A model generated the notes under the pieces. The model made no database searches and was not told where the DNA came from. It saw nothing but the letters and a program-made list of their open reading frames with translations. From a virus, in IMG/VR virus record IMGVR_UViG_3300037076_000241, positions 1-20,758 of that record: DNA of 20,758 nt. The stretch is one strand, 5' to 3'. Positions 676-16,984 of the stretch are shown piece after piece (position 1 is the stretch's first letter; each line of letters begins with the position of its first letter). The position numbers were made by a program, and so were the translations under genes.

Positions 676-1670
676 TGAAAGCAGCGTTCTTAACCGAAAT
701 GGGGTTCCGTGGGACTATCCCACACAACCACAATAACATGCGAACCGAGTTTGCATGGATGCACGCTTTGAAGGCTGACCACTTCAATATCCACGACTAT
801 TCTCAGGTCCACGAATACGATGTCGTGTTCATCATCTTTCCCAAAGCCACGGTCAAATTGAATACCGTAGGAGTAGAGATGACCACACCCGGAGCAGACA
901 AAGACATCGGTATCTATTCCAGAGACATCGTGACATGCCTCAAGAAGAGCAATCAACTTGTCTGTGCCGTCCAAGAGGGACCAGCATGGTTCTTCAACGA
1001 GTATGACATGCCGACCCAGTTCAATTTCTACAACCAATTGGCTGAGTGTGACATCATCTTTGCCCACAACGAATACGATACCCATTTCTACAAAGGGTTG
1101 TTCCCTCAGACTCGCATCAAGGTAATACCAACCTTGATGATTGCCAATAATGATACTTGCCCCTTCGTGGCAGCACCAGAGAACAAGACTATCATTGGTG
1201 GAAACTTCTGTCATTGGTATGGTGGGTTTCAAAGCTATCTTGTAGCTACCGAGTTTAATTGCCAAATTTACGTCCCCGCTTCGCACTGCAAACGTAAGGG
1301 AGAAGAGCAGGCTCCGGGGTTGCACCACCTACCGTGGGTCTTCTGGACCAAATGGATGGAACAGCTATCCACGTTCAAATACGCTGTAAACCTGATGCCT
1401 ACGATTGCAGCAGGAACGTTTAGTTTGAACTGCGCTTACTTTGGTATCCCTTGCATTGGTAATGAGAAGGTAGATACCCAACTGGCATTCTTCCCCGACC
1501 TCAGCGTGGATGTTCATGATGTGTTCCAAGCCCGTCATCAGGCTATCCTGCTATGCAAACAGGAATACTACGACGGAGCCAGCCATCACGCCAAGAAGAT
1601 GTTCAAGGAAAGCGTCCACGGAAATGTTGATAAGTGGATGGAAGTAATGAAAGACAACATCTATGGATAA
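675..1670 (+). CDS. Putative glycosyltransferase, GT-B-like C-terminal region (331 aa)
   Basis: The frame extends upstream to 519, but ATG 675 is preferred because it overlaps the previous stop codon in TAATG. The upstream 52 codons are antiparallel-free shadow of the DUF268 gene and look unlike protein. No signal peptide or membrane segment is seen. In the last third, YAVNLMPTIAAGTFSLNCAY followed by FGIPCIGNEKVDTQLAFFPD resembles the nucleotide-sugar-binding half of GT-B glycosyltransferases, where a small-residue loop precedes a 'new name, same place' segment with a G-IP-IG pattern. HNEYDTHFYKG and RIKVIPTLMI in the middle fit the inter-domain strand pattern. No EX7E motif is obvious, so the GT family cannot be named. 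The 3' end overlaps the GT2-GT11 gene by 8 nt. It likely adds one sugar of the glycan built by this operon. Confidence 0.6.
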   Translation: MKAAFLTEMGFRGTIPHNHNNMRTEFAWMHALKADHFNIHDYSQVHEYDVVFIIFPKATVKLNTVGVEMTTPGADKDIGIYSRDIVTCLKKSNQLVCAVQEGPAWFFNEYDMPTQFNFYNQLAECDIIFAHNEYDTHFYKGLFPQTRIKVIPTLMIANNDTCPFVAAPENKTIIGGNFCHWYGGFQSYLVATEFNCQIYVPASHCKRKGEEQAPGLHHLPWVFWTKWMEQLSTFKYAVNLMPTIAAGTFSLNCAYFGIPCIGNEKVDTQLAFFPDLSVDVHDVFQARHQAILLCKQEYYDGASHHAKKMFKESVHGNVDKWMEVMKDNIYG

Positions 1671-3210
1671 CCGCTTCATTATCGTTATCGGAAGCTATAA
1701 CAACGAGAAATGGGTCTCCCAGAACATAGAGTCTGTGCTGAAACAGACCCACAAGAACTGGCGAATGGTATATTACGACGCCTGCTCCGAGGACAACACC
1801 TACGAGATTGCCAAGAGATACATGGAGCAGGACAGTCGTATCAACCTCATTACCACAGGGCAGAGAAACCTCAAGACGTGGCTGTTCGATAAGCTTACAG
1901 AGTTCGAGAATATCAAACCCAATGACATCATCTGCGTTCTGGATGGTGATGACTTCCTTGCCAGCGACGACGTGCTCAATTATCTCAACGAAGTCTATAA
2001 CCAGACTCACTGCTGGATGACCTATGGCGGTATGATTTGTTGGGAAGGCGGGGACAAGACCCGAGAAGCATATCCACAGAACTCCGAACCTCCACCAGAG
2101 GTATTCACTCAGAAACTATACCGAAGAGACTTGTGGCGTTACTCGCACATGAGAACATGCCGTGGGTTCCTATGGAAAAAGCTTACACACGAGAATTTCG
2201 TTTCAGAATACGACGGAAACTATTTCACGTTGGACGACCTATGCACGGTCTATCCTATGCTTGAAATGTGTCCTGCCAGAAAGATTTACAGAGTAGAAGA
2301 CCATATCTACATCTGGAATGCCAGTGAGAGCCGTGGTTGTGCAGAGAACAAGACTAACAATATCGGGCAGCATTATGAGGCGGAACTCCGTACTCGACGC
2401 CCACCATCCAAAGAACTAACCGTTGTTAGTCCCGTCCTAGCCGGGGGCTTGGGCAATCAAATGTTCGAAATCGCTGCCGCTGCCTCACTGGCAAAGGATA
2501 ACAATGCTCTGTTGGTCATCAACCCAACAGAGCATATCCTGCCCAATCAAGGCAAGCCAGCAGGTAGCTACTTGTCCAGCGTGTTCAGTCAGATTATCAT
2601 AGATGAAGCACCGCCGACCAGTGACCACATTACCGTAGAGACGCTATGCTACGAGCCGATGGATTTCAAGCCCAACATCAAGCTTCGGGGCCATTTTCAA
2701 TCCTACAAGTACTTCCACCACAACCGACAATATATCCTCGACCTCTTCGCACCGACGTTCGACATAAGGAACCACATTGCAAAGACTTACCCCGCAGACA
2801 AGTCGAAAATTACCGCTATACAGGTAAGAAGAGGCGATTATTCCAAATTTCCGAACAGTCACCCCCTTCTATCACCCGAATATCCCGCTAAGGCGGTAAA
2901 AATCATTGGTTCTGAGCGGGTATGGATATTTAGTGACGACCTCGAATGGTGCAAAGAAAACCTGCATTTTGACTGCCCCACGGAATACATAAAAGATGAG
3001 GATTACATTGAAATGTATCTCATGAGTCTCTGCAAAAACATCGTTATAGCGAACAGCAGCTTTGGATGGTGGGCAGGATACTTGAAGACGACTCCCGGTC
3101 AAGTATTTGCGCCTAACCCGTGGTTTGGCCCCGCCCTACTCACCAAAGGATTCAAATACGAAGACCTCATACCAAGCGATTGGACAGTTATAAGCACATG
3201 CAAAGAGTAA
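1663..3210 (+). CDS. Bifunctional glycosyltransferase: N-terminal GT2 fused to C-terminal GT11 fucosyltransferase
   Basis: Residues 1-240 are a GT-A, family 2 glycosyltransferase. They begin with IIVIGSYNNEKWVSQNIESV and carry the metal-binding DGDD at 94-97. Residues about 254-510 are a GT11 (alpha-1,2-fucosyltransferase type) domain with its three hallmark motifs: GGLGNQMF at 261-268, VRRGDY at 388-393 and NSSFGWWAGYL at 464-474. GT11 enzymes use GDP-L-fucose. A stand-alone GT11 protein is about 280-300 residues, so this domain is near complete, and the linker is short (about 240-254). Fusion would let two successive sugars be added by one polypeptide; that is inference. No membrane segment is seen, so the protein is probably cytosolic and acts on a precursor. 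It overlaps the preceding gene by 8 nt and the following GT10 gene by 13 nt. Confidence 0.88.
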   Translation: MDNRFIIVIGSYNNEKWVSQNIESVLKQTHKNWRMVYYDACSEDNTYEIAKRYMEQDSRINLITTGQRNLKTWLFDKLTEFENIKPNDIICVLDGDDFLASDDVLNYLNEVYNQTHCWMTYGGMICWEGGDKTREAYPQNSEPPPEVFTQKLYRRDLWRYSHMRTCRGFLWKKLTHENFVSEYDGNYFTLDDLCTVYPMLEMCPARKIYRVEDHIYIWNASESRGCAENKTNNIGQHYEAELRTRRPPSKELTVVSPVLAGGLGNQMFEIAAAASLAKDNNALLVINPTEHILPNQGKPAGSYLSSVFSQIIIDEAPPTSDHITVETLCYEPMDFKPNIKLRGHFQSYKYFHHNRQYILDLFAPTFDIRNHIAKTYPADKSKITAIQVRRGDYSKFPNSHPLLSPEYPAKAVKIIGSERVWIFSDDLEWCKENLHFDCPTEYIKDEDYIEMYLMSLCKNIVIANSSFGWWAGYLKTTPGQVFAPNPWFGPALLTKGFKYEDLIPSDWTVISTCKE

Positions 3211-4067
3211 CATACCACACTGGCGAAAAGCGCACCGACTACGTTGAACAGATTCCACCCCGAGAAGACACATGGGCATGGGTCAGTGGCAATGGCGGCG
3301 AAGTGCATCTTTTTGAAGACAGCCAACTCCCCGAACACGTCAACTTCAACGGCAAGAAGAAGGTTGCGTGCATTGTGGAGTCTCCTTCTATCTACGATTA
3401 CTGTAAGGCTGGCCACTCATGGGTATTCCACCCGTATCAGTGGATTAAGGACAATCACCAACACTTTGACGTGGTTATGAGTCCTATGACATACCTAAAG
3501 GAACTCGTGGGAGACAAGTACTGGTGGGTGCCCGCTGGCGGCAACCGCATCAATCCCGAAGATTTCGGACTGTGGGAGAAGGAACGTATCCTTTCCATCG
3601 TAGCATCCGACAAACAATGGACGGATGGTCACAAGCTTCGCCATCAAATCGTCCAGAAGTTCCGTGACAAAATGGATGTCTATGGGCGTGGGTTCAATGA
3701 CCTTGTGGATAGGTATGATGATAACCGCCGAGGCAAGATTCTGGCGTTAGGTCCGTATTATTACTCGCTGGCCATCATCAATTCGCAGCATGACGATTAC
3801 TTCACAGAAATCTTGACAGACGTGCTCGCCTGTGCTACAATACCTATATTCTGGGGAACGAAAAATGTCGGCAAGTATTTCAACCCCGATGGCATCATTC
3901 AGTTCAATACCATCGAGGAATTTGAAGCACTCCTGCCGACGCTGACGCCTGAACTGTATTACAAGAAGATGCCAGCCATCGTTGAGAACATCGAGAAGGC
4001 AAAAGCATACAATACTCGGTTCGACTGGATATACGACAATTACAAGGACAAACTCGAAGCACTATGA
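3198..4067 (+). CDS. GT10 family (alpha-1,3/1,4-fucosyltransferase-like) glycosyltransferase
   Basis: I chose ATG 3198 over the upstream end of the frame at 3120 because residues before it are shadow of the fused glycosyltransferase; this start gives a 13-nt overlap. The 289-residue product carries the GT10 signature at about 190-228: SLAIINSQHDDYFTEILTDV, then a small-residue stretch with PIFWG, then YFNPDGII. It matches the family pattern DY-TEKL...G-VPIYWG-PN...YF. In well-studied GT10 enzymes the first part reads FENS; here it is IINS, so the usual acidic residue is absent. GT10 enzymes transfer fucose from GDP-fucose. With the GT11 domain next door, two fucosyltransferase families sit side by side. 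Acceptor unknown. The stop overlaps the next ATG (ATGA). Confidence 0.83.
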   Translation: MQRVTYHTGEKRTDYVEQIPPREDTWAWVSGNGGEVHLFEDSQLPEHVNFNGKKKVACIVESPSIYDYCKAGHSWVFHPYQWIKDNHQHFDVVMSPMTYLKELVGDKYWWVPAGGNRINPEDFGLWEKERILSIVASDKQWTDGHKLRHQIVQKFRDKMDVYGRGFNDLVDRYDDNRRGKILALGPYYYSLAIINSQHDDYFTEILTDVLACATIPIFWGTKNVGKYFNPDGIIQFNTIEEFEALLPTLTPELYYKKMPAIVENIEKAKAYNTRFDWIYDNYKDKLEAL

Positions 4068-4894
4068 GATACGCAGTACTAGGTTCAGCAGGACAAATCG
4101 GTGCCCATCTTACGGAGTATCTCCGTGCCCGTGGGGAATACGCTATTGAGTTCGACCTCGAAACTTCCCCCGCCATGGACTTACGCAACGATTACGCAAT
4201 GGATGACTTCATCGTCACCGCTGACTTCGTATTCTTTCTCGCCTTTGATGTAGGTGGGTCTCAGTACTTGAAGAAGTATCAGACCACCTTTGACTTCGTG
4301 AATAATAACACTCGCATCATGACCAACACATTCCGTGCATTGAAAGACATGAAGAAGCCCTTCATCTTCGCATCTTCCCAGATGTCGAACATGCACTGGT
4401 CTAGTTACGGCGCATTGAAGTCTGTGGGTGAGCACTACTGCCGTGCCCTCAATAGCCCTATTGTCAAGTTCTGGAATGTCTATGGTATAGAGAAAGACCC
4501 GCAGAAGACGCATGCCATCACCGACTTTGTAAAGATGGCAGTGAAGGGCGACCCAATCACCATGCGAACCAATGGCACCGAAGAACGTCAGTTCCTCTAT
4601 GCCGATGATTGCTCCGAGGCACTACACACAATGGCACAACAATATGACAAGTTGTCCCGCCTTAGCGAGTATCATATTTCGTCGTTCGAGTGGGTTACAG
4701 TCAAACATATTGCCGAGACCATCTCCCAGTTCTGTAATGGAGCCTCTATCATCCCCTCCAAGGAAGAAGACACAGTGCAGCGAGACAATAGGAACGAACC
4801 CAGTCGGTTCATTCTGACCGAGGGAATTTGGAAACCACAGACTTCATTGACCGAAGGCATTCGCCGAATAGTTGAGTATGAGCGACCCCACTAA
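4064..4894 (+). CDS. NAD(P)-dependent extended SDR, nucleotide-sugar epimerase/dehydratase or reductase
   Basis: The 276-residue protein begins with the Rossmann motif GxxGxxG (GSAGQIG, residues 7-13). The SDR catalytic pair is Y115 and K119 in SSYGALK, and a sugar-binding half follows with WNVYG and REQ-like ERQFLYADD around 174-182. FLAFDVGGSQYL near 58-69 recalls the GG loop of GDP-fucose synthase and GDP-mannose 3,5-epimerase, so a role in GDP-fucose or a related GDP-sugar is possible, especially next to two fucosyltransferase domains. The precise substrate cannot be read from the sequence. The length is somewhat short for the family (usually 300-350). It starts by ATGA overlap and overlaps the following small gene by about 17 nt. 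Its role is donor-sugar synthesis in the cytosol. Confidence 0.82.
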   Translation: MRYAVLGSAGQIGAHLTEYLRARGEYAIEFDLETSPAMDLRNDYAMDDFIVTADFVFFLAFDVGGSQYLKKYQTTFDFVNNNTRIMTNTFRALKDMKKPFIFASSQMSNMHWSSYGALKSVGEHYCRALNSPIVKFWNVYGIEKDPQKTHAITDFVKMAVKGDPITMRTNGTEERQFLYADDCSEALHTMAQQYDKLSRLSEYHISSFEWVTVKHIAETISQFCNGASIIPSKEEDTVQRDNRNEPSRFILTEGIWKPQTSLTEGIRRIVEYERPH

Positions 4895-5099
4895 AGCAGA
4901 AAAAGATTGGTATATCAACTGGTATAACAAACTACCAGTCGCCACGCAAAGTCCTTGTGAAAAATGGGGGCTAAGAACTATTTGTCCATCTTGCCGAGAA
5001 CCCATCTTCGCCAAACTCAACGAAGATGGTGATGTCTGCATGGATATGAAGCACAAAGACGACTGCCAACTATTGAAAGAATACAATGCCGCTCACTAA
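4878..5099 (+). CDS. Small zinc-ribbon-like protein of unknown function (73 aa)
   Basis: ATG 4878 is preferred; an in-frame TTG lies two codons upstream at 4872. The protein is small and soluble. It has a CPSC knuckle near residue 36 and two further cysteines in CMDMKHKDDC about 20 residues later, which could make a four-ligand zinc site. I do not recognise a family. It overlaps the SDR gene at its 5' end and the RfbH-type gene at its 3' end (14 nt), so it is co-translated with sugar enzymes. A structural or accessory role is possible but no function is claimed. Confidence 0.62.
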   Translation: MSDPTKAEKDWYINWYNKLPVATQSPCEKWGLRTICPSCREPIFAKLNEDGDVCMDMKHKDDCQLLKEYNAAH

Positions 5100-6453
5100 G
5101 GAATACATCCAAGAACTTGTCGCTCAATACATCATTGAGAAGCACAGGGATAAGAAATGGACCCCCGGTAAAGATTGGGTCCAATACTCTGGTCCATACT
5201 TCGATTTCAATGAGTATGTCAATGCTGTTGGCACCCTACTCGATGAATGGCTTGTGCTTGGAAACGACGCCATTGAGTTTGAGAAGAAGTTTCCGCCTCT
5301 CCTTGGACAGAAGCATGGCGTAGTGGTCAATAGCGGTTCTAGCGCCAACCTGTTAATGATGGCGGCTCTAATGGCGAGGAAGTCATTGGCACCACAAACG
5401 AAAGTTATCGTCCCTGTAGCAGGGTTTCCAACCACGCTCAATCCAATCATTCAACTCGGTCTAAAGCCAGTGTTTGTGGATATTGATTTGGATACCCTCA
5501 ATCTTAATCTCGACCAAGTTGAAGAGTGCCTCACTCCGAACACTATTCTTACGTTCGCCCACGTCCTCGGCAATCCCCCGAATATGGATAGGGTGATGGA
5601 AACAGTACAGAAGAATCACATTACCCTCTTGGAAGACTGCTGTGACGCACTTGGCTCTACTTATGACAACAAACCCCTTGGCAGCTTCGGACGCTTTTCT
5701 TCTTGCTCTTTCTACCCCGCTCACCATATCACAATGGGTGAAGGTGGGTTTGTGGCGTGCAATGATGCGGAAGACGAGAAAGTCATTCGTAGCCTCCGTG
5801 AGTGGGGTAGAGGATGCTACTGCGTTGGAAAGAAAGCTAACCTGTCCACCAAGGGCACCTGTGGTTGCCGCTTCAAGAACTGGTTGCCGAGCCTTCCGAA
5901 TGAAATTTTCGACCATAAATACGTCTATGAGACCATTGGTTACAACATGAAGCCGATTGAACTACAATGCTCAATGGGACTCGCCCAACTCAATAAGCTT
6001 CCCGATATTCACGCCAAGCGCCGTGCTAACCATGCTCGCCTGACTGAGATTTTCTCTCTATACGAAGAGTTCTTTCACTTCCACAAGGCAACCCCAAAGT
6101 CTAATCCATCATGGTTCGCATTCCCGATTACGGTCAGAGACGGAGCACCATTCACACGTTCGGACTTCACGAAGTATATGGAAGACAACAAGATTCAGAC
6201 CCGCAACTACTTCGGCGGAAATCTATTACTTCAACCCGCCTATCGCAATCTCGACTGGACTGATTGGAGACAGTCTCCCGGTGTGTTTGTCCGTGAGCCT
6301 CCTACAATGAAAGACTATTTCCCAGTAGCTACCAAAGTCACAACCGACACTCTCTTCTTGGGAACAAGCCCTGTAATCACAGAGGAACAACTGGATTATG
6401 TCGCCGAACAGGTACATGCATTCATGCATGTAATGAAACAGATACGAGCATAA
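5086..6453 (+). CDS. rfbH-like: RfbH/DdhC (E1)-type PLP/PMP, iron-sulfur NDP-4-keto-6-deoxysugar 3-dehydrase
   Basis: This 455-residue protein belongs to the DegT/DnrJ/EryC1 fold but carries the features of the E1 dehydrase subgroup. The internal-aldimine lysine is replaced by histidine (SFYPAHHITMGEGG, H213), as in RfbH/E1 and ColD, so PMP would be bound without a Schiff-base lysine. Cysteines C186, C244 and C246 reproduce the C-X57-C-X-C spacing of the E1 [2Fe-2S] site. The fourth cysteine is C259 (or C261) after a longer loop than the usual seven residues. NSGSSANLL and EDCCDALGS are the phosphate- and cofactor-binding motifs of the fold. E1 works with an iron-sulfur flavoprotein reductase (E3) to remove the C3 hydroxyl, giving 3,6-dideoxy-4-ketosugars; no E3 is in this window. 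The substrate may be CDP- or dTDP-linked: the RmlB-like gene nearby hints at dTDP, as with SpnQ. Confidence 0.88.
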   Translation: MPLTKEYIQELVAQYIIEKHRDKKWTPGKDWVQYSGPYFDFNEYVNAVGTLLDEWLVLGNDAIEFEKKFPPLLGQKHGVVVNSGSSANLLMMAALMARKSLAPQTKVIVPVAGFPTTLNPIIQLGLKPVFVDIDLDTLNLNLDQVEECLTPNTILTFAHVLGNPPNMDRVMETVQKNHITLLEDCCDALGSTYDNKPLGSFGRFSSCSFYPAHHITMGEGGFVACNDAEDEKVIRSLREWGRGCYCVGKKANLSTKGTCGCRFKNWLPSLPNEIFDHKYVYETIGYNMKPIELQCSMGLAQLNKLPDIHAKRRANHARLTEIFSLYEEFFHFHKATPKSNPSWFAFPITVRDGAPFTRSDFTKYMEDNKIQTRNYFGGNLLLQPAYRNLDWTDWRQSPGVFVREPPTMKDYFPVATKVTTDTLFLGTSPVITEEQLDYVAEQVHAFMHVMKQIRA

Positions 6454-6456
6454 ACT

Positions 6457-7158
6457 ATGGCAATCTTCCGTGTAAAACATAACGACTTCGAACAGAAGTT
6501 TGACGCAGACAAAATAGACACTCTCGAAACTAACGAGTGGGAGAATGCTACACGCCTCGGCGAACAGGGGTGGGACAGCCGCTATGACTACGAAGCCCAG
6601 ATGATTCGGGGAGTTATTGCCGATACCAAGGCCAAGACCATCTTGGAGATTGGGTCAGGTCCGGGCGTCCTTAGCCAGAAGATACAAAAGCTTTTGCCCG
6701 AGCCAGTTCTATATGACCTCGTGGATAAACCATTCGCAAAGAAGTACTTCGAGGACAACAAATTCAAGGGACGCTTCTTCGTCAAAGACATCTCCATGAC
6801 CTTGGATTGGGAAGGGCTGGAAGCTGCTTACGACTTGATTATCTGCAACGACACCTTGGAGCATCTGATTGCCCCGTCAAATGTTGTCAAAATGATTCGT
6901 GGTCTCATGCATCAAGACACAGCATTCTTCGTCAGCGTTCCAAACTGGCGTATGGCCCATCAGTTTCTATACCGAGGACTGTGGGACTATGACAACTTCA
7001 TCTATTTCATGCATATTCACGGGTTCGAGATGGAATCGGTATATCCATCTTGCCTACAAACTCCTGACTACCCTAAAACGGATACAGAAGAGAGTATGCC
7101 CGACGAGCTAACTCGAAGCTGGAACTGGTACTTCGTCATGAAGTTGAAGACCAAATAA
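6457..7158 (+). CDS. Class I SAM-dependent methyltransferase
   Basis: The 233-residue protein has methyltransferase motif I at 62-70 (ILEIGSGPG), an acidic strand-2 end around YDLVDK, a motif II-like VKDIS segment, and motif IV-like YDLIICNDTLEHL near 125-137, as in the Methyltransf_11/23 families. The late strand is FFVSVPN. Nothing shows whether it methylates O, N or C atoms of a sugar. The operon context suggests a sugar or glycan acceptor. It follows the RfbH-type gene after only 3 nt, and its TAA shares a base with the next ATG (TAATG). No clear Shine-Dalgarno sequence is seen, so coupled translation is likely. Confidence 0.85.
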   Translation: MAIFRVKHNDFEQKFDADKIDTLETNEWENATRLGEQGWDSRYDYEAQMIRGVIADTKAKTILEIGSGPGVLSQKIQKLLPEPVLYDLVDKPFAKKYFEDNKFKGRFFVKDISMTLDWEGLEAAYDLIICNDTLEHLIAPSNVVKMIRGLMHQDTAFFVSVPNWRMAHQFLYRGLWDYDNFIYFMHIHGFEMESVYPSCLQTPDYPKTDTEESMPDELTRSWNWYFVMKLKTK

Positions 7159-8120
7159 TGAAAGTAGTATATGTAACTGGCTGTTTGGGCTTTATTGGAG
7201 CCTATGTAACCGAAGCCTGCCTCAAGGAAGGATGGCACGTCATTGGCGTGGATAAGATAACCTATGCCGCACAGCCAGAGCGTCTCCATGACTTCGAAAC
7301 CTATGGTCCCAACAAGTTCAAGTTCATTCAAACCGACATCAATAACTTGGACCGACTCTGCGATTGTGATTACGTCATCAACACCGCAGCAGAGACACAT
7401 GTTGACAACTCGATTGTCAGCAGTGATGCTTTCCTTCACTCAAATGTAAACGGCGTTCATCACCTACTGGAATTGGTCAGAAGCAAAGAAAGGTTTCGTA
7501 TGCCTACGCTTCTCCACTTCAGTACTGATGAAGTGTATGGGGATATTGCGAAAGGTGCTCATAAAGAGACCGACCTTCTAAAGCCCTCGAACCCGTATTC
7601 TGCAACCAAGGCGGCTGCGGACATGCTGATTCTGGCTTGGGGCCGAACCTTCAAAGTTCCCTATGTTATTGTCAGGCCAACCAACAACTATGGTGTAGGC
7701 CAATACACAGAAAAACTCATTCCGAAGACATGCAAACTACTCCAACTCGGACGAAAGGTGCCTCTACACAACAATGGAACTCCAAGGAGAACGTGGTTAC
7801 ACGCAAAGGATACGGCCTCTGCTATAATCACGATTATCAACACCGGAGTCCAAAACGAAATCTACAATATCGGGGGAAACGCCGAATTACAGAATGCAGA
7901 AGTTGTTGGCAAAATCCTCTCCATCCAAGATGGGCGGAAAAATTTATTTGATGGCGAGTTGGACGACTTCTGTGATTTCTCCTACCACCGAGATGGTCAG
8001 GACGTGCGGTACAGCCTCGATGACAGTAAACTCCGCAAACTCGGATGGAGCAATAAATGTGACCTTGACAAAGAGCTACCAACTGTGGTAACATACTATC
8101 AGAATAAATTCGTATGGTAA
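7158..8120 (+). CDS. rmlB-like: dTDP-glucose 4,6-dehydratase-like extended SDR
   Basis: The 320-residue protein shows all marks of the RmlB branch: GxxGFIG at 8-14, AAETHVDNSI at 77-86, the catalytic TDE triplet in STDEVYGD (122-129), Y147 and K151 in NPYSATK, and RPTNNYG near 173-179. In RmlB the Asp-Glu pair takes part in water elimination after C4 oxidation by NAD+, giving the 4-keto-6-deoxy sugar. That product class is the substrate of the E1-type dehydrase encoded just upstream. CDP-glucose 4,6-dehydratases use a different triplet in my recollection, so dTDP is the more likely nucleotide, though UDP-sugar relatives exist. Gene junctions are TAATG upstream and a 7-nt overlap downstream. 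No RmlA-type nucleotidyltransferase is in the window. Confidence 0.88.
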   Translation: MKVVYVTGCLGFIGAYVTEACLKEGWHVIGVDKITYAAQPERLHDFETYGPNKFKFIQTDINNLDRLCDCDYVINTAAETHVDNSIVSSDAFLHSNVNGVHHLLELVRSKERFRMPTLLHFSTDEVYGDIAKGAHKETDLLKPSNPYSATKAAADMLILAWGRTFKVPYVIVRPTNNYGVGQYTEKLIPKTCKLLQLGRKVPLHNNGTPRRTWLHAKDTASAIITIINTGVQNEIYNIGGNAELQNAEVVGKILSIQDGRKNLFDGELDDFCDFSYHRDGQDVRYSLDDSKLRKLGWSNKCDLDKELPTVVTYYQNKFVW

Positions 8121-8713
8121 CTAAGGAACAACTCATTGCATTTGAAGAAGATATAGCCCACTGCTTCAACACGAAGCAAATCCACGCCCCTATCCATCTT
8201 TACAATGGCAATGAAGACAAGATGATGGAGATTTTCCAGTCGGTGGACAAGAACGACTGGGTGTGCTGCACTTGGAGAAATCACTACCAATGCTTATTGA
8301 AGGGAGTCCCGCCAGAAGACCTCAAACGTCGCATTCTGAATGGGAAATCAATGGTCATGTGTATTCCCGAGCACAAAATCGTATGCAGTTCAATCGTAGG
8401 CGGCATTCCATCTATAGCCGTGGGCATTGCATGGGGTCTAAAACGGAATAAGCCCGAGGGACAAAAGCATTCCAATCGAGTATGGTGTTTTGTCGGAGAC
8501 ATGTCATCCCGCACGGGTGCTTTCCATGAAGCTTACAGCTACGCTCGTGGGCACTGTCTTCCGATTACATGGGTCATCGAGGACAATGGGCTGTCAGTAG
8601 AAACTCCAACCGATGTGGCGTGGGGAACCTACCCATCAACTCACATGATTCGATACAAATACAAAAACACCAAGTATCCTCATGCTGGTGCTGGCGTAAG
8701 AGTTCAATTCTAA
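8114..8713 (+). CDS. Thiamine-diphosphate enzyme, E1-alpha-like (PP domain) subunit, compact
   Basis: The 199-residue protein matches the E1-alpha subunit of 2-oxoacid dehydrogenases but is much shorter than the usual 320-400 residues. TWRNHYQCLLKG near 53-64 aligns with the E1-alpha RDH motif, and SSIVGGIPSIAVGIAWGLK with the IVG...GAGIA segment. The ThDP motif is GDM at 128-130 followed after 27 residues by N158, matching GDG-X(24-27)-N except that the third glycine is Met. E139-A140 in FHEAY aligns with the FEAY of the family. It pairs with the next gene, to which it is joined by TAATG. In a sugar operon a carboligase role, adding a two-carbon unit to a ketosugar, is more plausible than an oxidative dehydrogenase role. 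This resembles the proposal for the AviB1/AviB2 pair in avilamycin synthesis, and is inference. Confidence 0.82.
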   Translation: MVTKEQLIAFEEDIAHCFNTKQIHAPIHLYNGNEDKMMEIFQSVDKNDWVCCTWRNHYQCLLKGVPPEDLKRRILNGKSMVMCIPEHKIVCSSIVGGIPSIAVGIAWGLKRNKPEGQKHSNRVWCFVGDMSSRTGAFHEAYSYARGHCLPITWVIEDNGLSVETPTDVAWGTYPSTHMIRYKYKNTKYPHAGAGVRVQF

Positions 8714-9243
8714 TGAAATACTACGAAGAAATCAAGAAGGCGATGACGTTGCTCGCCAATCACCCTAAGACCATGTTCATAGGGCAAGCTGTCCGTTACC
8801 CCGGCACAGGAATGTATGACTCTCTCGCTCATCTTCCCGATGAAAAGAAATATGAGTTCCCCGTTACTGAAAACCTACAGATGGGAGTCTGCACTGGGCT
8901 TGCTATGTCAGGATGGATTCCAGTTGCCATCTATCCCCGATGGAACTTCCTTATCGTTGCCACCGACCAGATTGTGAACCATCTGGACAAGTATCCACTC
9001 ATGTCCAATGGAGAAGTCGTTCCAAAGGTCATTATCCGTGTAGCCATTGGAAGCGAACAGCCAGTGGACCCACAGGCACAACATAAAGGTGATTTCACAG
9101 ACGCATTCAAGTCCATGTGTCGAAGTATCCATATCGTTCGGCTTGACGAGCCAGAGCAAATTTGCCCCGCCTACGAGGATGCCTTAAAGAGTCATTTCAG
9201 CACCATTCTTGTAGAGAACGCTGACTTCTGCAAGACAAAATGA
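8713..9243 (+). CDS. Thiamine-diphosphate enzyme, E1-beta-like (PYR domain) subunit, compact
   Basis: The frame continues upstream to 8569, but ATG 8713, sharing a base with the preceding TAA, is the sensible start and gives 176 residues. The protein covers only the pyrimidine-binding domain. FPVTENLQMGVCTGLAMSGW near 49-68 aligns with E1-beta, placing E53 as the glutamate that activates the thiamine aminopyrimidine. PVAIYPRWNFL then ATDQIVNHLDKY follow the family pattern, and DPQAQHKG near 119-126 matches the PQHSQ active-site loop. The C-terminal transketolase-type domain found in standard E1-beta (about 325 residues) is absent. With the alpha subunit it should still form a ThDP site at the PP/PYR interface. 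The ATGA overlap with the next gene keeps the operon continuous. Confidence 0.82.
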   Translation: MKYYEEIKKAMTLLANHPKTMFIGQAVRYPGTGMYDSLAHLPDEKKYEFPVTENLQMGVCTGLAMSGWIPVAIYPRWNFLIVATDQIVNHLDKYPLMSNGEVVPKVIIRVAIGSEQPVDPQAQHKGDFTDAFKSMCRSIHIVRLDEPEQICPAYEDALKSHFSTILVENADFCKTK

Positions 9244-10103
9244 AAATCCTAATCACGGGCGGTCAAGGGTACATAGCACGAAACCTCGTGCCTCTCTTCG
9301 TCAATGCGGGATATACCGTAGATGCCCCATCACGTACAGAGATGGACTTGCTAAACCCCGAACGGGTGGAGGAATACCTCACCAACTCCAAGCCCGACGT
9401 TATCATCCATGCTGCTGTCAAAGGTGGAGACCGAGACCACAAGGATACTTGGGAAGACGTATTCGTCCCGAACATGAAGATGTTCGAGAATCTATATCTA
9501 TGCGCCATGAGGCCCGATTTTGAGTCCTGCAAGTTCATTGTCATAGGTTCGGGTGCTGAGTTTGACAGGAGATACCCAATTAACGGACGATTTGAGGAAA
9601 CGGCAAAGTATAGTTGGCCCGTTGACCCATATGGTCTATCCAAGAACCTCATTACTCGCCGATGCCACGAAGACCTCGACAACATATGGGTAGTGCGCCT
9701 CTTCGGATGCTTCAACTTCGACGAAGACCCTTCTCGCTTCATCAAGAATGGTATCCTTAACCTCAAGCGAGGACTACCAATCGAAATTCATCAAAACAAA
9801 AAGATGGACTACTTTTATCTTGATGACATATTCACGGTGATAGACTTCATCCTCAATCATCCAGAAAATATACCAAAAGACATCAACTTAGTCTATCCTG
9901 AGAAGAAGACTCTACTTGATATTGCGAGTCTGATTCATAAGCATATGAACGTATTCCACCCCACCATCAAATTGAATGAAATGGGTGAGGGCTACGACTA
10001 TACTGGGAGTGGATATTTCCTAGATAGAATGCGAAAAGTAGGCAATCTTCAATTGCTTGGCCTCGAAGAAGGCATCCGACGAACCGTGCTAAAACTCACA
10101 TGA
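9240..10103 (+). CDS. Extended SDR, GDP-fucose-synthase/RmlD-like sugar reductase-epimerase
   Basis: The 287-residue protein has an N-terminal Rossmann motif GGQGYIA (7-13, with Ala in the last Gly position). SRTEMDLLNPERVEEYL then PDVIIHAAVKGG at about 31-63 is the pattern seen in GDP-fucose synthase and RmlD-type reductases. Y131 and K135 (DPYGLSK) are the SDR catalytic pair, and VVRLFGCF then MDYFYLDDI follow as in the family. Such enzymes epimerise and/or reduce 4-keto-6-deoxy sugars using NADPH. It could make GDP-L-fucose for the GT10/GT11 domains, or reduce the product of the E1 and ThDP enzymes; the sequence does not decide. Both ends are ATGA overlaps, the downstream one with the HNH endonuclease. 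Confidence 0.82.
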   Translation: MKILITGGQGYIARNLVPLFVNAGYTVDAPSRTEMDLLNPERVEEYLTNSKPDVIIHAAVKGGDRDHKDTWEDVFVPNMKMFENLYLCAMRPDFESCKFIVIGSGAEFDRRYPINGRFEETAKYSWPVDPYGLSKNLITRRCHEDLDNIWVVRLFGCFNFDEDPSRFIKNGILNLKRGLPIEIHQNKKMDYFYLDDIFTVIDFILNHPENIPKDINLVYPEKKTLLDIASLIHKHMNVFHPTIKLNEMGEGYDYTGSGYFLDRMRKVGNLQLLGLEEGIRRTVLKLT

Positions 10104-10561
10104 AATGGTCAAAGCCATGCCCCGAATGTGGAAAAGAAATGGTTTATACAAACCAATCCAATCTCATTCAGTCTAAACGATTAGGGAAATCATGCAGAAG
10201 TTGCGGCCAAAAAATAAGACCCTACGAAAACCTCTTTCATTACCTTCTCCACAAATGCAAAAAGAAATCTCTTCACTGTGGAATTACGTATAACGATTTC
10301 GTCCGATTCACCAAAACTCCCACTTGCCACTATTGCCATAGCCCCGTGAAATGGCTGAAACATTCAACGTACATGGGAGGCGAATCCTTTTCGTATAATC
10401 TTGACCGAAAAGACAATTCAAAAGGTTACACCAAGTCAAATTGTTGCGTATGCTGCTCTATATGTAATGCAGTAAAGAGTGACCGATTCACTCATGAAGA
10501 AATGGTGAAACTAGGTCACACCATCCGAGCAATTCGAAAGGACAGAACATGCAGCCAATAA
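10100..10561 (+). CDS. HNH endonuclease with N-terminal zinc ribbon, probable free-standing homing endonuclease
   Basis: The 153-residue protein starts with a zinc-ribbon-like module (C7-x2-C10 ... C32-x2-C35). The HNH-type core follows: CHYC at 76-79, the central YNLDRKDNSKGYTKSN at 99-114, and CCSICN at 118-123. The LDR-DNSKGYTK-N pattern is the common phage HNH variant, with Asp-Arg in place of the Asp-His start of the classical motif. Free-standing HNH enzymes of phages cleave recipient genomes lacking the gene and so spread themselves and flanking DNA. The gene is visibly more A-rich than its neighbours. It nonetheless fits the operon exactly: ATGA overlap upstream, and a 13-nt overlap downstream with the Shine-Dalgarno sequence of the next gene inside it. 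Confidence 0.85.
   Translation: MKWSKPCPECGKEMVYTNQSNLIQSKRLGKSCRSCGQKIRPYENLFHYLLHKCKKKSLHCGITYNDFVRFTKTPTCHYCHSPVKWLKHSTYMGGESFSYNLDRKDNSKGYTKSNCCVCCSICNAVKSDRFTHEEMVKLGHTIRAIRKDRTCSQ
10537..10542 (+). promoter_or_regulatory. Ribosome binding site inside the HNH gene for the downstream glycosyltransferase
   Basis: AAAGGA lies six bases before ATG 10549, within the last codons of the HNH gene. It fixes the start of the GT2-like gene and means that gene can be translated from a site carried by the endonuclease reading frame. Confidence 0.65.
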
Positions 10562-11445
10562 GTTTTTGTATCAATACCGCAAAAAATGAGAAGGACTACA
10601 TCACACTTCTCTTGAATTCACTTCTCAATGGAATTGACGTTAATCTCCACGAGATTCTGATTTTTGTGGATTCGGATAACCAAGGCACCGCTAACATGTT
10701 GGTGGGTCTTAAAGCCAATTTCCCAAATCTGAGGGTCGTTCGGAATGACGGGCCTCCTGTAGGTTATGCTGGAAATATCAATTGGATGTTTAAGAATGCG
10801 AAACATGAAGTGGTTTCTTACCTCCAGTCTGATATGGTTATAAGTTTGAAATATGACGAAAAACTACTATGCCACGTCAAAGAAAACCGTATCCTATGTT
10901 CTACCCGTGTAGAACCCCCCCTCCATTGCCCAAACGATAACAATGTCACCTTTGTCCAACGCTTCGGATTCGACCCCGCAGAATTCAAGTATGAAGACTT
11001 CCTACGCTTCGCTGAGGCGAATAAGGACACCAACAAGCTGACAAACTACTTCTTCGCCCCGTTCACGCTGTACAGGCACCTGTGGAACGATATAGGGGGT
11101 CATGACGTAAGCTTCAAGAAATCCCGGGAAGACAGCGACATCGCCCTTCGATTCGCTCTTAAAGGAGTCGAGTTCAAACAGTGTTGGGATGCCATCGTGT
11201 ATCACTTCACCTGTACAAGCAGCCGTGGCATCGAGTGGTGGAAGCCAGAGAACCAAGAGCGGGACAAGAAACGCATGGAACTTGACCATGTTGAACTAGA
11301 CAGATTTGTAAAGAAATGGGGAACCTTCCTTCACCCTACATGCCCCGAAGAAGTCGAACCCCTTCTTAAACAACTCCCCAATCTACGTGACAAAATCGTA
11401 GTTACCAACCCGCCCATTGACGAGACGAAACTGACCATCCTGTAA
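10549..11445 (+). CDS. GT2-like (GT-A fold) glycosyltransferase
   Basis: The 298-residue protein opens with ISFCINTAKNEKDYITLLLN and continues with EILIFVDSDNQGTANML and a conserved-looking NDGPPVGYAGNINWM, which fits the nucleotide-binding half of family 2 glycosyltransferases. YLQSDMVIS at about 91-99 occupies the DxD position as QSD, so one acidic residue is lost. SREDSDIALRFALKG in the C-terminal half resembles the ED-x-D-L-R catalytic region. The start has a good Shine-Dalgarno sequence. No membrane helices are seen. It is the last gene of the continuous glycan operon; after it come 11 bases and a membrane-protein gene. Confidence 0.78.
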   Translation: MQPISFCINTAKNEKDYITLLLNSLLNGIDVNLHEILIFVDSDNQGTANMLVGLKANFPNLRVVRNDGPPVGYAGNINWMFKNAKHEVVSYLQSDMVISLKYDEKLLCHVKENRILCSTRVEPPLHCPNDNNVTFVQRFGFDPAEFKYEDFLRFAEANKDTNKLTNYFFAPFTLYRHLWNDIGGHDVSFKKSREDSDIALRFALKGVEFKQCWDAIVYHFTCTSSRGIEWWKPENQERDKKRMELDHVELDRFVKKWGTFLHPTCPEEVEPLLKQLPNLRDKIVVTNPPIDETKLTIL

Positions 11446-13023: not shown

Positions 13024-13453
13024 CCTTATCCTTATATTTGGCTTCCCACCTTGGCAATCCCTCAACAGGATGGCGAAGCTTTCCTATTGCCCACCACCAG
13101 CATCCATCCTCTCGCTCTACCATCAAGTAAGAATCTGCCGAATACCTATGAAATTGGGGAGCCTCTTTCCAGCTTTTCACCCATGAAATTTCCATCAACT
13201 CTTCCAATGTGTCGAAGCTGACGCACCGTGGGTCAAACCCATCCGCAAAATTAGGAATGTGTTCAACTATCCGATTCTTCTTTGTCTCGCCCTCGGGTTG
13301 AAAGTTTACACATTCTTTGTGATGGCCCTCGGCCTCTGGCTGATTACAACAACGAAACGTCGGAGGTCTTGGCTTAGATGCCTCGGCCTTAGCCGCTTTC
13401 ACTTTAGCCATTTGGGCTAAATACCACTCGGCTGTGTCTTGTTCATTCTTCAT
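12929..13453 (-). CDS. Hypothetical protein with Cys/His-rich segment (174 aa)
   Basis: ATG 13453 overlaps the end of the clamp-loader gene by 11 nt and is chosen over the GTG/ATG choices upstream, which would read through that gene. The N-terminus is a Lys/Ala-rich helix (MAKVKAAKAEAS). FRCCNQPEAEGHHKECVNF near 35-53 could bind zinc (CC, HH, C). The central part (EELMEISWVKSW, FHRYSADSYLMVEREDGCWW) looks like a compact folded domain of unknown type. The last 30 or so residues, rich in K, D, R and T, overlap the next gene and look less protein-like, so the overlap may be tolerated rather than functional. Function unknown. Confidence 0.62.
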   Translation of the reverse strand: MKNEQDTAEWYLAQMAKVKAAKAEASKPRPPTFRCCNQPEAEGHHKECVNFQPEGETKKNRIVEHIPNFADGFDPRCVSFDTLEELMEISWVKSWKEAPQFHRYSADSYLMVEREDGCWWWAIGKLRHPVEGLPRWEAKYKDKDEDVRRKTIGSDAGTGRTHSTRKTEPASRLV

Positions 13454-13964
13454 CTTTTGCCTTGTCATCAAAGACCTCTTCCATCTCTTTGTCATCCATT
13501 CCGAATGCCCGACAGATGGATACAAGTTCCCCCTGACCTTCTTCGGTCTTCAAAAGGATATTGGTGTAGTCGTTGGCCTCAAACTGTGATACTCCGAACC
13601 TCTTGGCTACGATTTGAAGGAGTTCCTTCTTATGCTTCATCTTGCGGGACTTAATCCACTTGTAAAAGCGAAAGTCCTGCGGCACAAGTGCCACAAGCAA
13701 TTGGTAGAACTGAGGGGAAGGAATCTTGTCGAATAGCTGATAGAGTTGCGCCATCTCTTCAACGATGGCGGCGTCCATTGACAGCGCACGAACAATCATG
13801 AAATGATTGAACGACTTGCGGTCATCCTCTGACAGGTTGTTATAGTAATTCGGGTCTTTGTCTTGCCGAATTGCTTTAACATGGTCAAACAGACTTTTGC
13901 GCTTCGGTAGCTGCTGCTCGCTCTTGCTGCTTTTCGATTTGACGGATGTCTTTCTTGGTGCCAT
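13443..13964 (-). CDS. 62-like: DNA polymerase clamp-loader small subunit (T4 gp62-like)
   Basis: ATG 13964 is preferred to a GTG at 13985, giving 173 residues. After a basic Ser/Lys-rich head comes KSLFDHVKAIRQDKDPNYYN, then SFNHFMIVRALSMDAAIVEE, then FYQLLVALVPQDFRFYKWIK. This is the F-D-V-AI ... N-F-NR-LSM ... Y-LL-P---F-KW-K pattern of gp62 proteins in T4-like phages and cyanophages. With gp44 (the ATPase) gp62 loads the gp45 sliding clamp onto primer-template DNA. The C-terminal helix-rich part (FGVSQFEANDYTNILL) fits the family. The gene sits in a leftward operon with dNMP kinase. Its start overlaps the end of the membrane-anchored gene by 80 nt. It is the strongest marker of a T4-type replication system here; gp44, gp45 and polymerase are not in the window. 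Confidence 0.8.
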   Translation of the reverse strand: MAPRKTSVKSKSSKSEQQLPKRKSLFDHVKAIRQDKDPNYYNNLSEDDRKSFNHFMIVRALSMDAAIVEEMAQLYQLFDKIPSPQFYQLLVALVPQDFRFYKWIKSRKMKHKKELLQIVAKRFGVSQFEANDYTNILLKTEEGQGELVSICRAFGMDDKEMEEVFDDKAKDEE

Positions 13965-14235
13965 AGAATGCTTTTTCCATATCACCCTGTAGGGTGTCTT
14001 GGTTTCCTCTTAAGGTCTCACACCATCCGACGATGACTGGTATGCGGTCATCAATCTTGTCAACTCGCTCATACAGAACCTTCAACTGGTCGTCAAGAGT
14101 TTTGAGAGGGGTATTGAACTCGGTTAAGGCGAGTTGTAGTGATTCAACCTTCTTGGTGAGGGCAACAATCATCTTGGCCAAGACTGCAATTGCAGCAATG
14201 GTAAGCAACAGTAGGATAGATAGTACGATAATCAT
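13885..14235 (-). CDS. Membrane-anchored coiled-coil protein (116 aa)
   Basis: The protein starts MIIVLSILLLLTIAAIAVLA, a single N-terminal transmembrane helix (about 2-28, followed by lysines, so the rest is probably cytoplasmic or, if a signal anchor, periplasmic). The remainder is an amphipathic coiled coil with regular Leu/Ile/Val spacing (LKTLDDQLKVLYERVDKIDD). It resembles small phage inner-membrane or spanin-like proteins only in layout; no lysis genes are nearby, so I do not call it a spanin. Its ATG overlaps the TGA of the preceding 51-residue gene. Its last 80 nt overlap the clamp-loader start. Confidence 0.65.
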   Translation of the reverse strand: MIIVLSILLLLTIAAIAVLAKMIVALTKKVESLQLALTEFNTPLKTLDDQLKVLYERVDKIDDRIPVIVGWCETLRGNQDTLQGDMEKAFYGTKKDIRQIEKQQERAAATEAQKSV

Positions 14236-14400: not shown

Positions 14401-14525
14401 AGAAAAAGTATTGTCTCTCATTGTAAATAGTCTATCACACCACAAAACATCAAGCAACTTTTTTTAACAGAAAAGATTTCGTAAGATTTTTCGTAATAAT
14501 CTATTTTAGGGTAATACTTATTGGT
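14401..14525. promoter_or_regulatory. Divergent AT-rich intergenic region, likely holding promoters for both directions
   Basis: This is the longest non-coding stretch in the window and lies between a leftward and a rightward gene block. On the - strand TACAAT (a five-of-six match to the -10 box) lies near 14420, with TTGATG about 22 nt farther upstream; the spacing is poor. On the + strand the octamer TTTCGTAA occurs twice, at 14477-14484 and 14489-14496, one helical turn apart. No clear rho-independent terminator is seen. Promoter placement is tentative. Confidence 0.4.
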
Positions 14526-14681
14526 ATGGGAAGAAAACGAGTTTATAGAACAAAGGAGGAACTGGATGAACGAAACCGAAAATATAGAATGTCCAGCTAT
14601 TGGAGACATGTCGAACAGGAACGGGCGGCATCGCTCAAACGATATTACAGGCGTAAGTGGAATATACAAAATAGTCAATAA
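14526..14681 (+). CDS. Protein-like 51-codon ORF overlapping the GIY-YIG gene in another frame
   Basis: From ATG 14526 the frame reads MGRKRVYRTKEELDERNRKY, then a run with RYYRRKW, ending at TAA 14679-14681. It is rich in Arg, Lys, Glu and Tyr and resembles the short basic leaders that precede many phage GIY-YIG/NUMOD endonucleases. It overlaps the first 116 nt of the endonuclease gene, whose own N-terminal residues there look less protein-like. It may be a separate small gene, or the original N-terminus of the endonuclease now separated by a frameshift. Its own ATG lacks a close Shine-Dalgarno sequence. Confidence 0.42.
   Translation: MGRKRVYRTKEELDERNRKYRMSSYWRHVEQERAASLKRYYRRKWNIQNSQ
14552..14559 (+). 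promoter_or_regulatory. Shine-Dalgarno AAAGGAGG deciding the GIY-YIG start
   Basis: AAAGGAGG ends six bases before ATG 14566, an almost ideal site. It argues for ATG 14566 over the TTG at 14521. The site lies inside the overlapping 51-codon ORF. Confidence 0.75.
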
Positions 14682-15240
14682 AACCAACGGCAAATACTAC
14701 GTTGGAAGTTCCAACAACATTGACGGAATGTACGGACGATGGTATGAACATATTAACGACTTACGAGCAAACAGACACGATAATGACCACTTACAAAAAT
14801 CGTGGAATAAATATGGAAAAGATGCGTTTGAGTTTATCATAGTAAAGGAAGTCTCCCCGGACAAACTTCTCATAGAAGAACAAACATACCTCACCATTGC
14901 TTCCGTAGAAACAGATAAAACATACAACATGAGCTTCTTATCCACAGGTGGGGGAGGATTTACTGGTCACCGACATACCGAAGAATCAAAACTAAAAACT
15001 TCTCGAAAACTCAAAGGCATTCCAAAAAGAAATCATGGAACAAAACGTCCCCAAGTAAGTGGGAACAAAAATCCACAATGGAAACCGGTGGATAGTATCA
15101 CAAAAAATATACTATTGGAAACTTATAAGACATATGGATATGGAGCATTGAAGTCAAAAGCGAAAACTACATTTGGTCTCGGCGCAACCGTCGTTCATCG
15201 TCTGTCAAAAGAGTTTAGACTCATATCAAGATATTTATAA
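14566..15240 (+). CDS. GIY-YIG homing endonuclease with NUMOD3-like region
   Basis: With ATG 14566 the product has 224 residues. The GIY-YIG domain spans about 29-110: GIY at 32-34, YVG at 45-47, the catalytic Arg in YGRWYEH (R58) and the metal-binding Glu in LLIEEQTYL (about 104-105). The HLQKSWNKYGKDAFEF stretch is typical of phage Seg-type enzymes. GFTGHRHTEESKLKTSRKLKG-type sequence after residue 130 is a NUMOD3-like DNA-binding repeat, and a helix-turn-helix-like tail (ALKSKAKTTFGLGATVVHRL) follows. These free-standing enzymes nick or cut homologous loci in competing phages. The gene is AT-rich and sits in a divergent spacer. A small unknown gene follows after 6 nt. Confidence 0.9.
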   Translation: MNETENIECPAIGDMSNRNGRHRSNDITGVSGIYKIVNKTNGKYYVGSSNNIDGMYGRWYEHINDLRANRHDNDHLQKSWNKYGKDAFEFIIVKEVSPDKLLIEEQTYLTIASVETDKTYNMSFLSTGGGGFTGHRHTEESKLKTSRKLKGIPKRNHGTKRPQVSGNKNPQWKPVDSITKNILLETYKTYGYGALKSKAKTTFGLGATVVHRLSKEFRLISRYL

Positions 15241-16164: not shown

Positions 16165-16193
16165 ATACTACCACGGCGGATATAATATGTCAA
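16165..16193 (-). promoter_or_regulatory. Sigma70-type promoter for the leftward small-gene pair
   Basis: On the - strand TTGACA (16193-16188) is followed after 17 bases by TAGTAT (16170-16165). The -35 box is a perfect consensus, the spacing is ideal and the -10 matches four of six. Transcription would begin near 16158, about 27 nt before ATG 16131. The -35 overlaps the TGA stop of the GIY-YIG gene. Confidence 0.68.
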
Positions 16194-16984
16194 GCATTAT
16201 TTTTATCTACGTCTGAAATAAACGTAAACCCCCGCCATTCCCCCCGTCTCATTAAACGATTTACGTTCATACGGAGCCGTTTTTCTCGATTGAGATTTAC
16301 AAGTTCCCACTTTCCATTTATAGGGATTTCTTCTCCATTAGGAGTTTTGAGAATTCCCCGAGACCATTTGGACGGTGGTCGCTTCCCATCTATAGTCATC
16401 TTCCATCCTTTGTTTTCTCCACAACTTTCAAGCATTTGATACCCGATTCGCTTTCGGTCATTTTTATGAAGATGGCGTCCCATCTTTTCTAAAAACACTT
16501 TTGTCTCATAAGAATTTGAGAATTCGTAAATTATTCCCTCGGGGGAAGTAAGAGTATGTTTCTTGGAAAGACCACTTATAATATTTTTTCTTGTTTTAGG
16601 GTCCGTCCACATCTTTCTGGCGGCGGTTGATATTTTTTTTCTTGTTGACTCGGAGAATGTATCATACTTGTTAAGACAAGTGTCTCGATGCTCCCCGATA
16701 AAGTCATTCTCTATCTTAAGAATTTCCCGACGTGTTGCTGACATTGCTACAATGTCAAACGTGGCCCGTTGGAGGTCGCCAGAATCAAACAACTCTTGGA
16801 GTTTAGGGTTATGGCACTTTCTCTTTAGAAATACACATTTGTACTGCCGAAGCCGCCCAAATATATCTTTGGTTTGACCCACATAAATTACCTTTCCATC
16901 CAACTCTATAGTATAAACGAAATAACTAATCGTTTCTATGCTAAACATCAACTGATAAAAATTTCCGTGGTCTCCTAATGTCAT
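16190..16984 (-). CDS. GIY-YIG homing endonuclease (264 aa)
   Basis: The N-terminal GIY-YIG domain has FVY at 22-24 for the first motif and YVG at 34-36 in VIYVGQTKDIFGRLRQYK, with catalytic R44 and the acidic E92 in EILKIENDFIGEH. The linker SESTRKKISTAARKMWTDPK is NUMOD3-like. A C-terminal region with two TPNGEEIPI/SPEGIIYEF-type beta segments (NUMOD1-like) ends in a basic helix (REKRLRMNVNRLMRRG). ATG 16984 has AAAGGA ten bases upstream. It lies between the VWA gene and a promoter-led small gene, in the same direction, as expected for a free-standing intergenic homing gene. It is AT-rich relative to the VWA gene. Confidence 0.88.
   Translation of the reverse strand: MTLGDHGNFYQLMFSIETISYFVYTIELDGKVIYVGQTKDIFGRLRQYKCVFLKRKCHNPKLQELFDSGDLQRATFDIVAMSATRREILKIENDFIGEHRDTCLNKYDTFSESTRKKISTAARKMWTDPKTRKNIISGLSKKHTLTSPEGIIYEFSNSYETKVFLEKMGRHLHKNDRKRIGYQMLESCGENKGWKMTIDGKRPPSKWSRGILKTPNGEEIPINGKWELVNLNREKRLRMNVNRLMRRGEWRGFTFISDVDKNNA

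Follow-up and report, generated by a model that had tools for sequence, protein, structure and literature searches.

Does a phage operon encode its own route to a carbon-branched sugar, and which enzyme would then form the new carbon-carbon bond? The question is raised by virus record IMGVR_UViG_3300037076_000241 of IMG/VR, a sequence of 20,758 bases that was examined from position 1 to position 20,758 (the window), and whose first half is a glycan-modification block. At 5086-9243, the original prediction had placed an RfbH-type sugar 3-dehydrase, a methyltransferase, an RmlB-like 4,6-dehydratase and a two-gene thiamine diphosphate (ThDP) enzyme in one coupled operon, and we confirm this arrangement in both place and strand. 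The membership of the block needs amending in two respects: a short-chain dehydrogenase/reductase (SDR) gene at 9240-10103 had been left out, and the methyltransferase is not constant, other genes occupying its position in relatives. Along the series RfbH, methyltransferase, RmlB-like, E1-alpha-like, E1-beta-like and SDR, the gaps are 3, -1, -7, -1 and -4 bases, as in a single coupled operon.

Here we argue that this operon probably encodes a phage pathway to a nucleotide sugar that bears a carbon branch on C4, a 4-C-branched 3,6-dideoxy sugar. With somewhat less confidence, we propose a modular pathway to C-branched (di)deoxy sugars that phages from many aquatic habitats have in common, in which the step that forms the carbon-carbon bond is exchanged among three unrelated types of ThDP enzyme, sometimes together with donor genes, and of which the window holds a version with a minimal E1 core made of two single-domain chains. 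C-branching by YerE is known from lipopolysaccharide (LPS), and the pair described below would to our knowledge be the smallest E1-type carboligase. In a literature search outside subscription journals and preprints, no account of C-branched sugars in phages, of an exchange of ThDP types or of a half-size E1 came to light. RfbH itself has been listed among viral auxiliary genes (PMC10653327).

A half-size E1 pair in a sugar operon

The ThDP enzyme is a half-size E1 of 199 and 176 residues, compared with about 320-370 for full-length alpha chains and about 330 for beta chains, and the C-terminal domain of E1-beta is absent. The AlphaFold2 model of the alpha chain (pLDDT 92.9) finds its best PDB folds in the diphosphate-binding (PP) domain of pyruvate dehydrogenase (PDH) E1-alpha, and that of the beta chain (pLDDT 92.3) in the N-terminal half of E1-beta, the pyrimidine-binding (Pyr) domain (TMq 0.85, TMt 0.46); for both chains the fold matches span about half of the target, with TMt of 0.38-0.48 among the top ones. 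PDH E1 outscores transketolase (TK) and DXS throughout, in sequence as well as in fold. Alpha residues H28, H57 and N158 are invariant and R55 is found in 34 of the 36 aligned members, while beta residues E53, Q123 and H124 are invariant in 25 aligned members; in an alignment with human PDH E1, the kept residues correspond to the active-site His and Arg of the alpha chain and to the Glu and His of the beta chain. The size of the pair and its active-site residues are conserved over about 190 relatives.

The start codon of the beta gene, ATG at 8713, has one base in common with the alpha stop codon (TAATG). This start was adopted in place of the one at 8569 given by the list of open reading frames (ORFs), and the E1-beta-like gene is best started here, in predicted translational coupling to alpha. 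The E1-beta C-terminal domain contacts E2 in PDH, and no E2 or E3 gene was recognised in the window; because both that domain and these genes are absent, the mini-E1 pair is unlikely to be a normal subunit of a dehydrogenase complex. Other identities were tried and rejected: a transketolase by the best sequence and fold matches, which are to PDH E1; a YerE-like lyase by the E1 type of the pair, which is not the single-chain fold of the acetohydroxyacid synthase (AHAS) type in the decarboxylase superfamily; ordinary PDH E1 genes by size, tree and context; and a frameshifted single gene by the conservation across relatives of the split with its short coupled junction. A fused homologue (L111) was set aside as a structure target, its beta rows having aligned onto the alpha half.

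Among the viral contigs of IMG/VR, 188 relatives of the alpha gene were confirmed, and about 30 more come from bacterial genomes. In the tree, every mini pair, whether from a virus or a bacterium, separates from full-length E1 with a support of 100/100, and the window pair lies inside an all-viral, RfbH-linked subclade (100/99). Whether the pair clusters with ordinary 2-oxoacid dehydrogenases, the refutation that the original prediction had named, was checked by this tree: it falls outside them, in a fully supported clade, with E1 as its nearest solved fold. The earlier description of an E1-alpha/E1-beta-type pair therefore stands as to type and catalytic residues, but not as to size, since the pair is not PDH-sized like Pau11/Pau12 and forms a separate half-size clade.

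A second mini-E1 clade unites phages with Nitrospira, Piscinibacter, SAR116, Pelagibacter and others. Its pairs adjoin another kind of His-type dehydrase, closest among solved structures to ColD; genes for a heptose kinase, a guanylyltransferase, a GDP-fucose-synthase-like protein and a B12 radical S-adenosylmethionine (SAM) protein are also neighbours. ColD-like His-type dehydrases are the other known route to 3-deoxy-4-ketosugars. Given this location beside a ColD-like dehydrase, the mini-E1 pair, as judged by gene context, accompanies makers of 3-deoxy-4-ketosugars in two nucleotide pathways. In Marinomonas, it is a full-length E1 pair that adjoins a ColD-like enzyme.

Bacterial clusters combining a mini-E1 pair with a ColD-like dehydrase, HddA/HddC-like heptose kinase and guanylyltransferase, a GDP-fucose-synthase-like SDR and a B12 radical SAM gene were seen at L097:2685-15349 and in L093, L102, L085 and L099; the product of the L097-type clusters is probably a branched, heptose-derived sugar. 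Full-length E1 pairs also occur in bacterial sugar clusters (L147:8938-14011, beside a ColD-like dehydrase, and L121:8875-11006), and may link PDH E1 to the mini family.

One operon position, three types of ThDP enzyme

A search with RfbH yielded 75 viral contigs, 74 of them with a usable gene. The ThDP enzyme near RfbH is a single-chain AHAS-like (YerE-like) protein in 29 of the 74, a mini-E1 pair in 14, both in one and a mini-TK pair in 13; the other 17 have no ThDP gene within reach, many of these contigs being truncated. After dereplication of RfbH at 90% identity (n=33), the corresponding numbers are 16 YerE-like, 7 mini-E1, 4 mini-TK and 6 without any. Where a ThDP gene is present, an SDR gene lies immediately 3' of it in 37 of 57 RfbH loci. 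The exchange extends to the closest relatives of the window: L165, the nearest by RfbH (identities of 73% for RfbH, 70% for the methyltransferase, 71% for RmlB and 67% for the SDR), has a mini-TK pair (211 and 165 residues, at 9033-9668 and 9665-10162) between RmlB and SDR, the very position of the E1 pair in the window, and L270, the nearest by RmlB (87%), likewise has a TK-type pair. The best PDB match of the AHAS-like type is JanthE (8rph, 474 bits), a YerE-like lyase (PMC12188165), whose unusual CDG motif (PMC12247030) recurs in six phage loci of this type. The three types have one chemistry in common, in which a carbanion bound to ThDP attacks a carbonyl; the known acceptor of the YerE family is the 3,6-dideoxy-4-ketosugar (PMC12247030).

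Linkage was compared on contigs of at least 12 kb, counting any of the three ThDP types and using a Lys-type sugar aminotransferase as the control. A ThDP gene is found near RfbH in 45 of 51 contigs and near RmlB in 48 of 49, as against 2 of 50 near the control (Fisher p about 1e-19 for RfbH and 1e-24 for RmlB, values to be read with care as the contigs are related). One of the two control contigs with a ThDP gene (L350) is the query's own contig, chosen earlier for its mini-E1 pair; the neighbouring SDR (4064-4894) gave no result as a control query. Within the RmlB set, the presence of RfbH and that of a ThDP gene are not associated (p = 0.68), as a ThDP gene is present at almost all RmlB loci, and 36 of the 38 contigs without RfbH still possess one. 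Since the ThDP gene is kept where RfbH is missing, the core of the pathway, on gene content, is RmlB-ThDP-SDR, with RfbH as an option that decides whether the C3 hydroxyl stays.

Seven phage loci of the YerE type have genes for acetaldehyde dehydrogenase and 4-hydroxy-2-oxovalerate aldolase after the ThDP gene. These loci are L177 (11000-11860, 11857-12855), L188, L206, L212, L213, L214 and L217, and in L177 both the acetaldehyde dehydrogenase (acetylating) and the aldolase score above curated cut-offs. The product of the two added enzymes is 4-hydroxy-2-oxopentanoate, which falls within the donor class preferred by ErwE (PMC12247030), and by this analogy the genes are a donor supply for a longer carbon branch. 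In some phages (L179:12085-13742), an AroB-related cyclising phospholyase (TIGR04425, 376 vs 400) and a FabG-like SDR separate the YerE-like gene from the SDR.

The candidate pathway and competing explanations

The RfbH protein scores 448 bits, above the cut-off of 423 for the NCBIfam RfbH equivalog, and its best PDB match (316 bits) is 3bcx, a CDP-6-deoxy-L-threo-D-glycero-4-hexulose-3-dehydrase (E1). Alignment with 3bcx places its catalytic His where aminotransferases have Lys (YPAHH, SFYPAHHITMGEGG) and shows that the [2Fe-2S] cluster cysteines are kept at EDCC, at CYC and at a Cys further on, an insertion of 5 residues lying between the last two of these sites. By family score and active-site residues, the 3-dehydrase is a genuine RfbH/E1-type enzyme. 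For the RmlB-like protein, TIGR01181 (dTDP-glucose 4,6-dehydratase) is by far the best family at 296 bits, although below its equivalog cut-off of 365, and the CDP-glucose 4,6-dehydratase model gives 65; the best PDB matches are dTDP-glucose 4,6-dehydratases, and STDE and YSATK motifs are present. Being nearer to dTDP- than to CDP-glucose dehydratases, the protein hints at a yersiniose route that runs on dTDP sugars.

Computation covered the enzyme families, the catalytic residues, the fold, the structure of the operon, gene linkage and the replacement by YerE-like or mini-TK enzymes in relatives; what the substrate and donor are, in which order the steps run, which nucleotide is used and where the sugar ends up we infer as follows. 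The RmlB-like enzyme would convert a nucleoside diphosphate (NDP)-glucose, probably host dTDP-glucose, into a 4-keto-6-deoxy sugar, from which RfbH with host electron carriers would remove the 3-hydroxyl to give a 3,6-dideoxy-4-ketosugar. The mini-E1 pair would decarboxylate a 2-oxo acid, most likely pyruvate, on ThDP and transfer the two-carbon unit to the C4 ketone, producing a 4-C-acetyl tertiary alcohol. The SDR encoded at 9240-10103 likely finishes the sugar, and would do so by reducing the acetyl ketone to a yersiniose-like 4-C-(1-hydroxyethyl) sugar; the methyltransferase probably decorates the sugar, in what would be an optional step. A glycosyltransferase of the operon would then attach the sugar to the virion or to a host glycan.

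The yersiniose pathway of Yersinia O-antigens (RfbH/DdhC, YerE, reductase) has the same gene logic of a 4,6-dehydratase, an RfbH-type 3-dehydrase, a ThDP enzyme and an SDR, but in the window the ThDP enzyme is an E1-type pair rather than a single AHAS-like chain, the dehydratase is dTDP-like, and the carrier is a phage. As for the YerE-like lyases ErwE and JanthE, an actual YerE/JanthE-like enzyme occupies the slot in sister phages. The alphaKADH2 pairs (KbDH-alpha/beta, AviB1/AviB2, Pau11/Pau12, aldgamycin) are PDH-like alpha/beta ThDP enzymes proposed or shown to add an acetyl unit to a ketosugar (PMC12247030; PMC4425429), sugar branching in antibiotic clusters having been demonstrated for KbDH in vitro and for aldgamycin by feeding and knockout (PMC12247030). 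Unlike these, the phage pair has chains of 199 and 176 residues without the C-terminal domain, Pau11/Pau12 being compared by their published sizes of 325 and 345 residues (PMC4425429); the genomic surroundings of the phage pair are in agreement with acetyl transfer to a ketosugar. In a search of 247 actinobacterial genomes, which returned short flanks only, no antibiotic-type (AviB-like) pair was clearly identified. With 2-oxoacid dehydrogenase E1 (PDH and the branched-chain enzyme, BCKDH), the phage pair shares the fold of both catalytic domains and the active-site His and Glu, but it is half-size, belongs to a separate clade, lies in a sugar operon and has no E2/E3 partners in view. Proteins of PHROG 34187, annotated 'transketolase central region', from cyanophages S-SM2 and P-TIM68 are homologous to the phage pair (about 41% identity, PP and Pyr domains, sugar gene clusters), but they are fused chains of 402 residues that adjoin a zinc alcohol dehydrogenase, have no RfbH and form a deeper branch of the family. 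Split-gene or mini transketolases likewise have PP and Pyr on two chains, and a mini-TK replaces the E1 pair in L165 and others, yet by sequence and fold they belong to a different ThDP superfamily.

Three other explanations compete with the C4-branching pathway. The pair might branch the ketosugar with another donor, such as a ketose phosphate or hydroxypyruvate (a transketolase-like transfer of a hydroxyacetyl unit) or a longer 2-oxo acid, and indeed a true mini-TK pair fills the slot in sister phages and genes for longer donors are present in other loci. However, the window pair has the signature residues and nearest folds of E1 and not of TK, and a 2-oxo acid is favoured as the donor by these E1-type features; pyruvate is the first choice, given an E1-type active site and the use of pyruvate by the known alphaKADH2 branching enzymes (PMC12247030), and we consider the use of another donor unlikely. 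It is also conceivable that the product of RmlB, RfbH and the SDR is an unbranched 3,6-dideoxyhexose of the paratose or abequose type, while the ThDP pair serves another sugar or molecule of the same glycan cluster. RfbH and an SDR are enough for the known dideoxyhexoses (Salmonella rfb pathway), and glycan clusters are mosaic, but the pair is placed directly between RmlB and SDR in overlapping frames, unrelated ThDP enzymes substitute in the same slot, and the linkage is far above the control; this division of labour strikes us as decidedly improbable. As its best named families and folds are those of PDH E1, the pair could, lastly, be a 2-oxoacid dehydrogenase E1 in reduction or decay, supplying acetyl groups or serving the metabolism of the host without any relation to sugars. 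The conserved size and active site, the coupled stop-start junction, the missing E1-beta C-terminal domain, a clade apart from PDH E1 and a window in which E2/E3 are not seen all speak against such decay, to which we give very little credence.

Several observations weigh against the branching pathway as drawn. In the ThDP motif, 35 of the 36 aligned alpha members show an unusual change, with GDM or GEM where GDG is expected (residues 128-130, window 8495-8503), the mini-E1 pair is without a characterised close relative, and neither the donor nor the position of attack is fixed by anything in the window. The partner reductase of RfbH (E3) was not recognised among the window genes examined, the contig being a fragment; the reductase may be supplied by the host, and with none seen in the window a host ferredoxin or flavodoxin would have to serve. 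About half of the RmlB/ThDP loci have no RfbH within about 7 kb, so that the acceptor need not be a 3-deoxy sugar. The contig of the window is a 20.8-kb fragment, and related contigs are not independent samples. For the chemistry originally predicted (4,6-dehydration, 3-deoxygenation and a ThDP-dependent branch), 3-deoxygenation is an optional step, and the support now goes well beyond analogy: the strongest evidence for branching lies in relatives, with their exchange of the pair for YerE/JanthE-like or mini-TK enzymes and with the donor genes of some of them.

Gene neighbourhood and biological significance

Table 1. Genes of the sugar block and its surroundings, with positions in the window
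Feature	Position	Strand	Basis
GT2-GT11 fusion glycosyltransferase (context)	1663..3210	+	Pfam Glycos_transf_2 and Glyco_transf_11
GT10-like fucosyltransferase (context)	3120..4067	+	Pfam Glyco_transf_10, 40 bits
SDR epimerase-like gene (upstream context)	4064..4894	+	Pfam Epimerase
RfbH/E1-type PLP/[2Fe-2S] sugar 3-dehydrase, 455 aa	5086..6453	+	NCBIfam RfbH; PDB 3bcx
SAM methyltransferase, 233 aa	6457..7158	+	Pfam Methyltransf_23, 47 bits
RmlB-like NDP-glucose 4,6-dehydratase, 320 aa	7158..8120	+	TIGR01181; dTDP-glucose 4,6-dehydratase PDB matches
Mini E1-alpha, PP domain only, 199 aa	8114..8713	+	Pfam E1_dh, 45 bits; TIGR03182
Mini E1-beta, Pyr domain only, 176 aa	8713..9243	+	Sequence; AlphaFold2 fold
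SDR reductase, 287 aa	9240..10103	+	Pfam Epimerase, 93 bits; 4-base overlap with beta
GT2 glycosyltransferase (context)	10549..11445	+	Pfam Glycos_transf_2

Glycosyltransferase genes, as identified by Pfam, lie on both flanks of the sugar block (Table 1). The gene at 1663-3210 joins a GT2 domain and a GT11 fucosyltransferase-like domain, and the true start of the GT10-like gene is probably downstream of 3120. An ORF of 75 residues at 4872-5099, with a TTG start and a CPSC motif, overlaps the start of RfbH and may be a real small gene in the operon's only gap. Elsewhere in the window are a clamp loader A subunit-like gene (13443-13985), a hint of a T4-type phage, two GIY-YIG endonuclease-like genes (14521-15240 and 16190-16984) and a 754-residue protein without a Pfam match (17026-19290); there are no tRNA or Rfam matches in the window. 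Over the region 5086-11445, the related contig L005 is identical to the window at the HNH and GT2 proteins (100%) and 94-95% identical at RfbH, beta and SDR; identity drops to 79-85% for the methyltransferase, RmlB and alpha, and this patchy divergence suggests recombination inside the sugar block.

If the proposed pathway is correct, C-branched sugars, which until now were known from the LPS of bacteria and from antibiotics, are also products of phages, and the branched sugar presumably dresses the virion or alters host glycans against receptors, defences or rival phages. The pair would provide a minimal E1-type carboligase of about 375 residues in total for the synthesis of tertiary alcohols, and the phage loci would amount to a natural experiment, with a single step of a pathway taken over by three ThDP superfamilies. 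The roles of the cyanophage 'transketolase central region' genes would likewise become testable.

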